The notes beneath the pieces are model-generated. The model made no database searches. It was not told the origin of the DNA and worked only from the letters and a program-made list of their open reading frames with translations. The position numbers and the translations under genes are program-made. 50,040 nt of DNA from assembly GCA_024639325.1 (NCBI GenBank), contig JAHEIO010000021.1, positions 1 through 50,040 of the forward strand. The letters run 5' to 3'. This DNA is from Gammaproteobacteria bacterium (GTDB lineage Bacteria; Pseudomonadota; Gammaproteobacteria; Arenicellales; JAANXG01). This document shows positions 24,526-46,626 of the stretch, piece after piece; position 1 is the stretch's first letter, and every line of letters begins with the position of its first letter.

Positions 24526-25746
24526 CTAAGACGTGAACGCCTGAATTCCGGTCTGCGCGCGGCCCAGGATCAATGCGTGAATATCGTGGGTCCCTTCGTA
24601 AGTATTTACCGTTTCTAGATTCATTACGTGACGGATAACGTGGTACTCATCCGATATTCCGTTCCCGCCGTGCATGTCCCGCGCCATTCTCGCAATATCC
24701 AGCGCTTTACCGCAATTGTTGCGCTTCATGAGGGAAATCAGTTCCGGGGCACCCTGACCGTTGTCGATCATGCGGCCCAGTCGCAGCACGCCCTGGAGGC
24801 CCAGCGAGATCTCCGTTTGCATGTCGGCCAGTTTTTTCTGAATCAGTTGATTGGCTGCCAGCGGGCGTCCAAACTGTTTCCTGTCCAGCGTATACTGGCG
24901 CGCGGCGTGCCAGCAGAATTCCGCAGCGCCCAGGGATCCCCAGGCAATGCCGAAGCGGGCGCGGTTCAGACATCCAAACGGGCCTTTCAGTCCTTTCCCG
25001 CCGGGCAGGACGTTTTCATGCGGGACGAATACCTCATCCATGGAAATACTGCCGGTCACGGATGATCGCAACGAAAATTTGCCTTCGATAGTCGAGGTCG
25101 ACAGCCCCGTCATGTCTTTGTCCAGCAGAAAACCCCGGATAACGTCCTCCTCGTCTTTCGCCCACACTACCATGACATCCGCAACGGGGGCGTTGGTAAT
25201 CCACATCTTGCTGCCCGACAGTGAATAACCACCGTCAACCGGACGCGCCCTCGAAATCATGCCACCGGGATCGGATCCATGGTCGGGTTCCGTCAACCCA
25301 AAGCACCCGATCTTTTCTCCACTGGCCAGCCCGGGCAGGTACTTGTTGCGCTGAGCATCGCTTCCGTAAGCATAAATGGGATACATCACCAGGCTGGACT
25401 GCACGCTCATTGCCGACCGGTAGCCGGAATCCACACGCTCCACTTCACGGGCAATCAGGCCATAGGAAACATAACTGGCACCGCTGCCCCAGGGCTCGGG
25501 CAGACTGGCGCCCAGAAATCCCAACTGCCCCATTTCCGACATGATCTGGCTATCGAATCGCTCAAGCCTGTAAGCTTCCCTGACCCGGGGCAAAAGCTGC
25601 TCCTGGCTGTAGACGCGCGCGCTATCGGCGACAAGCCGCTCCTCTTCACTGAGCTGCTGGTCGAGTAGAAAGGGATCGTCCCAGGGGATTGAACTTTCGG
25701 CGGACGGTGCGGGAATGGTTGCTTGATACTCTGCTTGCGATGTCAT
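24526..25746 (-). CDS. gcdH: Glutaryl-CoA dehydrogenase
   Basis: A 406-residue FAD acyl-CoA dehydrogenase that decarboxylates glutaryl-CoA to crotonyl-CoA in lysine/tryptophan breakdown. Family-specific features are [14 protein letters not shown] (the arginine/serine-rich substrate pocket differs from ordinary acyl-CoA dehydrogenases), [24 protein letters not shown], the QFGRPLA cofactor motif and the catalytic glutamate in [16 protein letters not shown]. The closing sequence is diagnostic of GcdH. It is transcribed away from the DnaA-box region, which therefore forms its upstream control region. Confidence 0.95.
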
Positions 25747-26045
25747 GGATTCGTATTGTCTCAGATGGACGCTGTGGGTGATTGTAATGAAAATCGCCAG
25801 ACGCTATCCATTTCTTATCCACACGGTCTGTGGATAACTCTGTTGATAACACAAATGTACAGATCCAATCCCTAAGCGAACATTGACGTTCCGCTGTTTG
25901 ATTAAAAAGTATACATTCTTTTAAATTGTTTATTTATCATAGACTTATGAGATTTACTTCACAATTATTTTAAGCGTTGCGTGTTAAACCCGCTTGTCTG
26001 TTACGATTTCATTCATAATGTGTACAACTCTCACGAGCCGGCCGG
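25747..26045. other. AT-rich divergent intergenic region between gcdH and the RDD gene
   Basis: 299 bp without a gene. The gcdH side holds three DnaA-box-like sites (separate entry). The stretch 25895-25975 is strikingly AT-rich for this window. It contains a plausible rightward sigma-70 promoter, TTGATT at 25898-25903 and TTAAAT at 25921-25926 with a 17-bp spacer, but matches are only moderate. Confidence 0.6.
25815..25849. promoter_or_regulatory. Cluster of DnaA boxes (perfect inverted pair plus one near-match)
   Basis: TTATCCACA at 25815-25823 and its exact inverse TGTGGATAA at 25829-25837 both match the DnaA consensus TTATNCACA and are separated by 5 bp. A third site, TGTTGATAA at 25841-25849, differs by one base. 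An AT-rich stretch begins some 45 bp downstream. This could be a DnaA-regulated promoter for gcdH, a DnaA-titrating site or part of an origin; dnaA, mnmG and other usual origin neighbours are not in the window. Confidence 0.7.
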
Positions 26046-26563: not shown

Positions 26564-27634
26564 TTAGTGGACGCGCCGGATGAAGAATACACCCAGCATC
26601 GCGAATAGCATGGTCGGGAGAAATGCGCCCAAAAATGGGGAAATGTCGAAGATTTGAACGATCAATCCAAAACCCTTATCCATTACGAAGAACGCGAGGC
26701 CCAGCATAATGCCGGCGAACAGACTGCCGCCATAGCCTCCGCTTCGAACGCTTCTGAACACGAATGGGATCGCCAGGATAACCATCACCGCGGTAGCCAG
26801 CGGCGTTGCGATCTTTGCCCAGAATGCCAGTTCATAGGCCTCGGTGTCCTGGCCGTTGTCGCGAAGATGGTTGATGTACTGAGACAACTGGTATGCCGAA
26901 AGTTGATCCGGACGAATCAGGAACACCGACAAAATATCCGTCGTAACGTCGGTACTCCAGTATGCCGCGCGCGCGTTCTGGGATCGAGCACTTTCCTTGT
27001 TGATCAGCGTCTGTACGATGCCTTGCAGACGCCAACGCTGCGCTTCTTCCACATAGTTTCCCTTGTTTGCGAATACCAGGGAGCGCAGCCGGCCGTCATC
27101 ATCGAATTCGAACACCCTCACGTCGAGCAGTGACAGATCCGGCAAAACCTCTCCGACGTTCACATAGGATTTATTATCACGCATCCATAAGCCGAAATCG
27201 GACTGCTGATTGATGTTCTCCTGCAGAGCCTGCGCTCTGCCCCGCTGTGCCATGGTTTCCGAATACGGAGTCACAACTTCTCCGAGCAACACAGCGGCCA
27301 GCGCCAGGAAAGCGCCCACTTTGAGCACCGAGCCGGTGAGCCGCGCTACGGATACGCCAGCTGCGCGGATCACCACCAGTTCCGAGTCCACGGCAAGGGA
27401 AGACATGCCGAGAATTGAACCCAAGAGGGCCGACATCGGAAAGATTTCGTAGAGAATCCTGGGCGTAGACAGGATAACGAAGCGAACCGCATCCAGCACA
27501 CCGTATGATCCGATACCGATGTCCGATAACTGATCGATGAAGGTAAGGAACGTAAACAATCCCACCAGCACCGACACGGCCATCAACACCTGATACAGAA
27601 TGTGTTTGGCGATATAGTTATCCAGAATTCGCAT
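26564..27634 (-). CDS. lptG: LPS export ABC transporter permease LptG
   Basis: A 356-residue inner-membrane permease of the LptB2FG complex that extracts lipopolysaccharide and passes it to LptC/LptA. It begins MRILDNYIAKHILYQVLMAV. There are three N-terminal helices (about 12-32, 60-80 and 95-117), then a periplasmic beta-jellyroll domain (roughly 130-265) and three C-terminal helices. The coupling-helix region IFPMSALLGSILGMSSLAVDSELVVIRAAGVS is typical of the family. ATG 27634 is 2 bp after the lptF stop; the longer frame is shadow. The ATPase LptB is encoded elsewhere, as usual. Confidence 0.95.
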   Translation of the reverse strand: MRILDNYIAKHILYQVLMAVSVLVGLFTFLTFIDQLSDIGIGSYGVLDAVRFVILSTPRILYEIFPMSALLGSILGMSSLAVDSELVVIRAAGVSVARLTGSVLKVGAFLALAAVLLGEVVTPYSETMAQRGRAQALQENINQQSDFGLWMRDNKSYVNVGEVLPDLSLLDVRVFEFDDDGRLRSLVFANKGNYVEEAQRWRLQGIVQTLINKESARSQNARAAYWSTDVTTDILSVFLIRPDQLSAYQLSQYINHLRDNGQDTEAYELAFWAKIATPLATAVMVILAIPFVFRSVRSGGYGGSLFAGIMLGLAFFVMDKGFGLIVQIFDISPFLGAFLPTMLFAMLGVFFIRRVH

Positions 27635-27636
27635 CG

Positions 27637-28758
27637 TCAGGTGCCGCTGGATTTGGCCCGGGTGCGGCGCCACCTTATTCGGGGCACCGTCAACAGCGGC
27701 GCATTTTTCTGCCTGCGATAAAGGAACACGGACGCCAGGAACAGGAATATCGCGTGCACCCACCAAAGCCCCACATTGGGGTCGAACCGGCTCTTGCTCA
27801 GCATCGCGACCGAGAATCCCAGAAAATTCGTGTACAGAAAGTAGGCCATGAACGCCAGGATCATACTGGGCAGGCGGGCCTGACGGGGATTGACAAAGCT
27901 AAGCGACAGCGCGAACACCGCAAGAATCGGCACCATAATGACCTTCGCTATGCGCCAGTGCCACTCACTGATCAGGGCAGGATGGGTGTCGCGGTAAATC
28001 ACGGCCGTGGAACGCCCCTTTACCGGAGGCAACAACGAGAGATGGGACTTGGGTTCTATGCGCAGCGCGTAGGTCTCAAAATCCACGATCCGGTAGTCCG
28101 GCTGGCCGGGATTTCCTTCGTAGCGCGTACCGTTCTTGAGTACGAGAAAGCGGTCGTTGGTAAGTTCGTCTTCACGTTGAAATGCATATTTGGATACAAC
28201 GATTCCTTCCTTGCTAAACGAAGACTTGTATACGAAGACATTTTCGTACCGATCCGCTTCGCGATCGAACGCCTCGACGAAATAAACCCCGCGCCCTTTC
28301 TTGGTTTCCATGAAAGTCCCGGGGATGACCCCGGTAACTTCACTGCGGTTACGATATTCCTGCTCAACATCGAATCCCTTTTTGATGGCCAGGGGCGTCA
28401 GCCAGAACGAGAAAAGCGCAACCATTCCGCCAACAATAACGACCAGTACGGATAGCGGCTTGAGAAAATTGACCGGACTGATTCCGCTCGCCGCCAGGAC
28501 GACCATCTCGTTATCCCGGTTCCATCTGCCGAGGACCATGAGTATGGCAATGTACATCATGAGCGGAATAATGACGTCCAGGTATCCGACCGTCTTGAGC
28601 ACGACCAGCGTCAGAATCGCTTCCACGGGCACGTCGCCCCGCACCGCCTGCTGCAGGAATCCGAGCGAACGGACCACGACGAAGATACTCAGGATGACGA
28701 ATGTGACCGCAACGCTGGTCTGCAGGACCTCCCGTACCAGAGCCCGATTGACAATCAC
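27637..28758 (-). CDS. lptF: LPS export ABC transporter permease LptF
   Basis: A 373-residue partner of LptG. It starts with GTG (IVNRALVREVLQTS matches the usual family opening), has the coupling segment LGRWNRDNEMVVLAASGIS, a central periplasmic jellyroll domain (about 135-260) and three C-terminal helices, ending in a basic cytoplasmic tail. No good Shine-Dalgarno sequence precedes the GTG. Copy C of the dispersed repeat begins within 6 bp of the start codon, so the repeat forms its 5' untranslated region. Confidence 0.95.
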   Translation of the reverse strand: MIVNRALVREVLQTSVAVTFVILSIFVVVRSLGFLQQAVRGDVPVEAILTLVVLKTVGYLDVIIPLMMYIAILMVLGRWNRDNEMVVLAASGISPVNFLKPLSVLVVIVGGMVALFSFWLTPLAIKKGFDVEQEYRNRSEVTGVIPGTFMETKKGRGVYFVEAFDREADRYENVFVYKSSFSKEGIVVSKYAFQREDELTNDRFLVLKNGTRYEGNPGQPDYRIVDFETYALRIEPKSHLSLLPPVKGRSTAVIYRDTHPALISEWHWRIAKVIMVPILAVFALSLSFVNPRQARLPSMILAFMAYFLYTNFLGFSVAMLSKSRFDPNVGLWWVHAIFLFLASVFLYRRQKNAPLLTVPRIRWRRTRAKSSGT

Positions 28759-46353: not shown

Positions 46354-46626
46354 CTAGTTTAGGGCATCCTTAAGTGCTTTACCAGCCTTGAATTTGGGGT
46401 TCTTGGATGCGGGTATGGTAATTGCCTCACCGGTACGCGGGTTACGTCCAGTGCGTGCGGCTCGGTCCGTCACGGCGAAGGTGCCGAATCCCACCAACGT
46501 TACGGCATTGCCGCCGGCAAGAGATTTGGTAATGTTGGAAAACACTGCGTCGACTGCGTTGGCTGCGTCTGATTTGGAAAGGTCGGCCTGAGCGGCGACC
46601 GTATCTATGAGTTCCGCTTTGTTCAC
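46354..46626 (-). CDS. hupB: DNA-binding protein HU-beta
   Basis: A 90-residue HU-family histone-like protein. [11 protein letters not shown] opens the helical dimerisation half. [26 protein letters not shown] forms the beta-arm, with RNPRTG contacting the minor groove, and [13 protein letters not shown] ends it. It is HU rather than IHF judging by the location between lon and ppiD and the conserved NKAELI start. Promoter-like sequence lies 102 bp upstream. Followed directly by tRNA-Val. Confidence 0.97.

Follow-up and report, generated by a model that had tools for sequence, protein, structure and literature searches.

A candidate DnaA-reactivating sequence beside lptG in a gammaproteobacterial genome, and the distribution of its layout

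Background

Three DnaA boxes lie close together, with an AT-rich tract to one side, in the gap between an acyl-CoA dehydrogenase gene and an RDD family gene of a gammaproteobacterium, and the question they raise is what such an element does at such a place. The window analysed here, a stretch of 50,040 bases, is one complete contig (C352) of an assembly of 352 contigs (4.69 Mb, 95.6% complete). An earlier note on the window had offered three answers: a DnaA-controlled promoter, a DnaA titration site, or an origin-related element. A further answer, which that note did not name, is a DARS (DnaA-reactivating sequence), the DNA site where Escherichia coli recharges DnaA; another site, datA, has its own box set and one IHF site and promotes hydrolysis of DnaA-bound ATP. 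Among these readings DARS best fits the features tested, and the sequence comparisons given below make it very probable that the window element is a DARS that recharges ADP-DnaA. Published work is cited by PMC number and, throughout, from excerpts of the papers.

Results and discussion

A three-box core with an AT-rich flank

A sequence scan of the window finds the DnaA-box string TTATCCACA-N5-TGTGGATAA-N3-TGTTGATAA at 25815-25849, between listed open reading frames (Table 1). The earlier note had reported these three boxes, and all of them lie where it placed them; it had also called the chance of a mirrored exact pair low, which is borne out by an expectation, computed from base composition, of 5.3e-6 per window for two exact boxes in inverted orientation separated by 0-20 bp. 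On the same basis, 4.69 Mb should contain the full three-box string 7.7e-11 times; the genome has three. DnaA boxes at no more than one mismatch number 16 in the window, compared with 6.3 expected, and 16 was reached in 0 of 100 shuffles. In taking the boxes for a genuine DnaA-box element, and in turning to relatives for an answer, the note was right.

Table 1. Features of the candidate DARS in the window, its gene neighbours and the core copies of the genome
Feature	Sequence or family	Position	Strand	Remarks
DnaA box I	TTATCCACA	25815..25823	+	exact consensus; same place in E. coli DARS1 and DARS2 cores
DnaA box II	TGTGGATAA (TTATCCACA read on minus strand)	25829..25837	-	5 bp past box I, opposite orientation
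DnaA box III	TGTTGATAA (TTATCAACA read on minus strand)	25841..25849	-	3 bp past box II, same orientation as box II
AT-rich tract		25895..25974	.	81% A+T; holds the predicted Fis and IHF sites
Predicted Fis site	GATTAAAAAGTATAC	25900..25914	.	perfect against GnnYAnnnnnTRnnC; 50 bp past core; position conserved
Second predicted IHF site		25922-25934	-	1 mismatch
Predicted IHF site	TATCATAGACTTA	25935..25947	+	1 mismatch to WATCAANNNNTTR; 85 bp past core; position conserved
Fourth DnaA box	TTGTACACA	26019..26027	-	1 mismatch to TTWTNCACA; 169 bp past core; position conserved
Acyl-CoA dehydrogenase gene (gcdH of the earlier note)	no NCBIfam cut-off reached	24526..25746	-	start 68 bp from core; neighbour only
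RDD family gene	Pfam PF06271	26046..26534	+	neighbour in 16/16 loci of window type
lptG	NCBIfam TIGR04408, over cut-off	26564..27766	-	open reading frame as listed, true start probably further in; 16/16 loci
lptF	NCBIfam TIGR04407, over cut-off	27637..28758	-	15/16 loci
Core copy 1 (window)		C352:25815		
Core copy L005		C241:36523		acetolactate synthase gene on one side, convergent folA and thyA on the other
Core copy L006		C290:19753	-	near an RND transporter gene

The AT-rich tract that the note had seen directly behind the boxes is real, and lies further to the right than was stated. No 80 bp of the window are richer in A+T, and 2 of its 49,961 80-mers reach this level. Because matches to the Fis and IHF consensus strings, as printed in the excerpts of PMC8682772 and PMC4585315, are located inside it, we interpret the tract as a predicted Fis-IHF region. 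The string TTGATTAA had been considered as half an IHF site; that reading was dropped, the position statistics favouring Fis, with IHF 34-35 bp further on.

Comparison with known DARS sites

The E. coli K-12 bioD-uvrB and mutH regions (3.5 and 4.5 kb) were scanned whole for the same arrangement of boxes. The best match in the bioD-uvrB region is TTATCCACT-ATTCC-TGTGGATAA-CCA-TGTGTATTA at NC_000913.3 813,107 (3 mismatches), and the best match in the rppH-mutH region is TTATTCACC-TTTTC-TGTGGATAG-AGT-TGTGAAGAA at NC_000913.3 2,969,135 (5 mismatches); both agree with the excerpted text of PMC5742627, which puts DARS1 at 0.81 Mb and DARS2 at 2.97 Mb. The order and orientation of the boxes and the spacers of 5 and 3 are identical in DARS1, DARS2 and the window. 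The same excerpts, with which those of PMC8682772 agree, describe equal spacing in DARS1 and DARS2, a box I opposite to boxes II and III, and head-to-head DnaA contacts on boxes I and II. A plasmid DARS, that of ColE1, is also similar in that it has three DnaA boxes, two of which are needed in the right orientation (excerpt of PMC5835720); it differs in being plasmid-borne and 70 bp long, and the likeness is drawn from its published description.

In its flank the window element resembles DARS2 in one respect and departs from it in others. IHF and Fis sites lie on the box III side in both (for DARS2, excerpts of PMC4245941; in the window, by consensus only). According to those excerpts the DARS2 core is followed by IBS1-2 and then by FBS2-3, both kinds of site are needed and their position is important. 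Our consensus scan of DARS2 finds IHF-like matches at +58 and +74 and the sole perfect Fis consensus at +110, whereas the window has Fis at +50 and IHF at +85. Since Fis precedes IHF here, unlike the order in DARS2 (the non-essential FBS1 being left out), the element is filed as a DARS that is variant in its flank and not as a DARS2 orthologue. The core boxes of DARS2 are also further from consensus than those of the window, and its box V lies on the plus strand at +176, whereas the fourth box of the window lies on the minus strand at +169. DARS1, described as active without added factors in the excerpts of PMC5742627, contains no IHF consensus at one mismatch or fewer in the 420 bp past its core and a Fis consensus only at +228; the window has both. 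The gene neighbours differ as well: gcdH-like, RDD, lptG and lptF in the window, bioD-uvrB at DARS1 and rppH-mutH at DARS2.

Conserved phasing of Fis, IHF and the fourth box

The flanks of 185 loci were compared, 175 of them with 230 bp on both sides; these contain 167 non-redundant cores (less than 80% identity across the 230 bp flank), all oriented on the core. Since the cores were selected by pattern and the loci are related, the counts given out of 167 are not independent events. In 75 of the 167 cores a sequence that fits the Fis consensus (GnnYAnnnnnTRnnC) without mismatch begins between +49 and +52, and in a further 9 between +38 and +41; the remaining downstream positions, 34,736 in number, give 17 such hits, and 36,072 positions upstream give 28. 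IHF matches of at least 8/9 occur at +80 to +91 in 105/167 (controls: 1 and 3 in two downstream intervals, 4 in the upstream mirror), and TGTKNAYAA, the fourth box, occurs at +150 to +179 in 103/167 (2 in the control interval, 0 upstream). A smaller set of loci gives the same picture, with Fis in 68/146 against 0.39 expected.

The sites also keep their distance from one another. Fis and IHF are paired 32-37 bp apart in 71 of the 167 cores, with 1 such pair in the upstream control, and this strict pair is missing in the other 96. Within paired cores Fis takes one of two places, +39/40 (6 cores) or +49 to +52 (65 cores), with no other offset between 0 and 185, and 48 of the 71 have the fourth box too, mostly 116-119 bp past the Fis start. 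The two Fis positions are 10-11 bp, or one helical turn, apart; where loci of family f10 are shifted, Fis is displaced together with IHF and the fourth box.

Genomic context within the order

The order was surveyed with the N5/N3 pattern at up to 3 mismatches in 60 genomes, the present one included, with the reversed pattern as control. Cores were found in 36 of the 60 genomes (60 matches), and the control gave 0 in all 60 rows; at the same threshold no core was found in 24 genomes, among them all six sampled members of family f11. These six (G022, G030, G035, G040, G044 and G048) have relatives in the order with cores, a pattern of loss or divergence. Each of the four members of the genus has three cores. 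Among the 43 of 60 matches whose contexts were read, 16 are of the window type, 16 are found upstream of a PriA-cluster gene in divergent orientation, and 11 lie elsewhere. The identity of PriA was confirmed by family model for the copies in the congeners G002 and G003. This recurrent neighbour of about 735 aa had been taken from its length for ptsP, a gene that would have pointed to synteny with E. coli DARS2, until a protein and family search returned PriA.

The window-type loci, from families f1, f4, f10 and f12, share one gene order, in which the core is followed by RDD and lptG and, with one exception, by lptF; a locus in the MAG FCS_Gamma_070 (L211) is the orthologue of the window site. 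The distance from core to RDD start ranges from 138 to 780 bp. The earlier note had looked to conservation of the boxes upstream of gcdH in relatives: the core is indeed kept, in the company of RDD and lptG, and the gcdH-like gene stands upstream of it in 4 of the 16 loci, at 68-98 bp, all four from the one genus. In G002, two cores lie 11 kb apart on one contig (C62:7112 and 18244), one of them of the lptG type.

Distribution in the class and phylum

The class was surveyed with TTAYYCACA-N5-TGTGGATAA-N3-TGTKNAYAA at up to 3 mismatches in 369 genomes spread evenly over it. A layout of boxes can serve other purposes than DARS activity, and a survey of patterns does not tell these apart; on this footing a core is present in 307 of the 369 genomes, with 0 in each row of the reversed control, and at this threshold 62 are without one. 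Across the phylum 224 of 398 genomes have a core (control 0 in each row), which by hand count divide into 124/137 within the class and 100/261 outside it. The 100 outside comprise 65 in family f218 (65 of its 74 genomes) and 35 in other families, again by hand count; families f217, f223, f224, f227, f230 and f234 yielded no core in the phylum sample.

Named contigs were scanned in addition for exact matches to the relaxed pattern, which gave at least 117 stretches with at least 121 cores and is not a census. Most titles among the stretches listed are of gamma- or betaproteobacterial groups. The exceptions are L110, L133, L165 and L195, labelled proteobacteria only, L162, with a Candidatus name, L150 (Polarisedimenticolaceae) and L186 (Phycisphaerales), the last of which is perhaps contamination because its proS neighbour is the same as in Competibacteraceae. 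A priA match occurs in 24 of the 117 stretches listed; further recurrent neighbours among them are proS (7 loci), xseA (6), hemW (6), polA (4) and typA (3), each named from one representative fragment. Core-to-origin distance, judged by eye from the matches listed for about a dozen genomes assembled in long contigs, varies from adjoining dnaA to mid-replichore. Cores are numerous in G128 (9), G240 (8), G100 (6) and G456 (9), the usual number being one to three, and a Nitrosomonas MAG (L175, JAIETK010000003.1) has three near-identical cores in one 8-kb stretch.

In the excerpts available, PMC4245941 and PMC8682772 state that E. coli relatives among the gammaproteobacteria conserve the DARS2 core and its sites, PMC5742627 refers to conservation in E. 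coli-proximal beta- or gammaproteobacteria, and PMC13220808 describes Bacillus subtilis as having no DARS. Our search, outside which most subscription papers fell, found no literature placing DARS at priA or lptG or surveying the class; we provisionally regard the distribution as new.

Partner proteins and alternative readings

A family model search finds Hda and IHF-alpha over their cut-offs in the present genome and its three congeners; homologues of Fis, 43-51% identical to the E. coli protein, are also present in all four. Of the 41 genomes searched for DnaA, 37 yield a hit that passes the cut-off; the present assembly is among the four without it, probably owing to an assembly gap. On the minus strand of the window, an open reading frame of 90 aa at 46354-46626 is HU-like by reading and matches the IHF-alpha model weakly.

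If the element were a DnaA-controlled promoter, it would repress or activate the gcdH-like gene or RDD in step with the cell cycle. Its placement could suggest this: the core is 68 bp from the gcdH-like start and that gene is kept beside it throughout the genus; on the minus strand a weak match resembling a promoter, 25810-25781, ends beside the core (2 found, 0.9 expected); and the fourth box is 19 bp ahead of the listed RDD start. However, the gcdH-like gene is missing at 12 of the 12 window-type loci outside the genus, the distance to RDD is not set, and cores of the same layout adjoin many other genes, L005 even lying between convergent ones. A gcdH promoter, which the earlier note had entertained, does not hold as the conserved function when the gene is found in one genus and RDD and lptG at every locus, and we consider the promoter reading very unlikely. 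The note's titration site, a tight cluster merely soaking up DnaA, would account for clustered consensus boxes, is in keeping with the support for DnaA titration by the E. coli chromosome in the excerpted PMC12371093, and is compatible with a DARS role. Titration needs no fixed spacing, orientation, helical phase, Fis or IHF, however, and all of these are conserved; that plain titration fails to predict the fixed spacing of the boxes, Fis, IHF and the fourth box makes this reading highly improbable.

The third proposal takes the element for the chromosomal origin or a second one, in which the AT-rich tract would serve for unwinding. It draws on boxes that adjoin the window's 80 bp of highest A+T content and on the absence of dnaA and its surroundings from the assembly, so that the true origin is unplaced. 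An origin is nevertheless unsupported, because the genome has three such elements and because clusters of a different layout adjoin dnaA at 11 of 12 loci of relatives. In G002 one core (not the window copy) is 225 kb from dnaA on the same contig, no dnaA match lies beside a core in the 117 stretches listed, and the GC-skew profile, that of the window only in a genome of 352 contigs, has no clear switch at the site. We regard an origin as extremely improbable. The DARS reading also has points against it: the order of sites unlike DARS2, the 96 of 167 cores without the strict pair, the incomplete flanks of L005 and L006, and the 62 of 369 and 24 of 60 genomes without a core.

A model for the element and its wider meaning

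By analogy with E. coli, we infer for the candidate DARS binding by DnaA, Fis and IHF, nucleotide exchange (ADP release) and an effect on initiation. Following published E. coli work, ADP-DnaA molecules bound to boxes I and II would meet head to head by their AAA+ domains, with box III aiding assembly; IHF and Fis would shape the AT-rich flank, and the resulting complex would let ADP go. The apo-DnaA would then be released and take up ATP, and so support the next initiation. As for the fourth box, our guess is that an additional DnaA may be bound there across the IHF bend, or that the box may act in feedback as box V of E. coli DARS2 does. With Fis, IHF and the fourth box phased on the core by one helical turn, the active complex can be given a concrete geometric model.

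The surveys suggest that DARS-type sites are common in gammaproteobacteria. A broader proposition, which seems to us evenly balanced between right and wrong, is that DARS belongs to the ancestral replication control of Gammaproteobacteria (beta groups included), where it is very widespread, and reaches some other proteobacterial families; that its common form is the phase-locked core, Fis, IHF and fourth box, often at the priA promoter; and that E. coli DARS1 and DARS2 are rearranged descendants. If this were true, placement at priA would couple DnaA recharging to the replication-restart helicase, and the recurrence at priA does suggest that initiation control is linked to replication restart. 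The conversion of ADP-DnaA to ATP-DnaA outside E. coli is largely unexplored in the searchable literature. As the signature finds candidate DARS in most of the gammaproteobacterial genomes sampled, the DnaA nucleotide cycle becomes testable in many organisms.

Other copies in the genome

Exact TTATCCACA occurs at 28 sites in the genome, and six of these make three inverted pairs with an identical 5-bp spacer. In all three pairs TGTTGATAA sits 3 bp past the second box, which gives three exact copies of the core. The flank of L005 has a Fis consensus at +51 and an IHF match of 7/9; that of L006 has a Fis consensus at +51 and no good IHF match; neither has a fourth box at the usual place.

The site upstream of priA in this genome (L257:1342-1376, minus strand; G000:C124) keeps three of its boxes, II, III and the fourth (+169). 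Its box I reads AAGGTCTGA, and no Fis consensus is found at +30 to +69. G002 and G003 retain the three-box core upstream of priA, and the contig of the remaining congener, G001, ends there. From its sequence the priA-side site looks like a decaying DARS copy, and the genus may be shifting its DARS set. The third core of the genome overlaps the listed start of an open reading frame of 203 aa (L006:6725-7336), the real start of which is probably downstream of the boxes.
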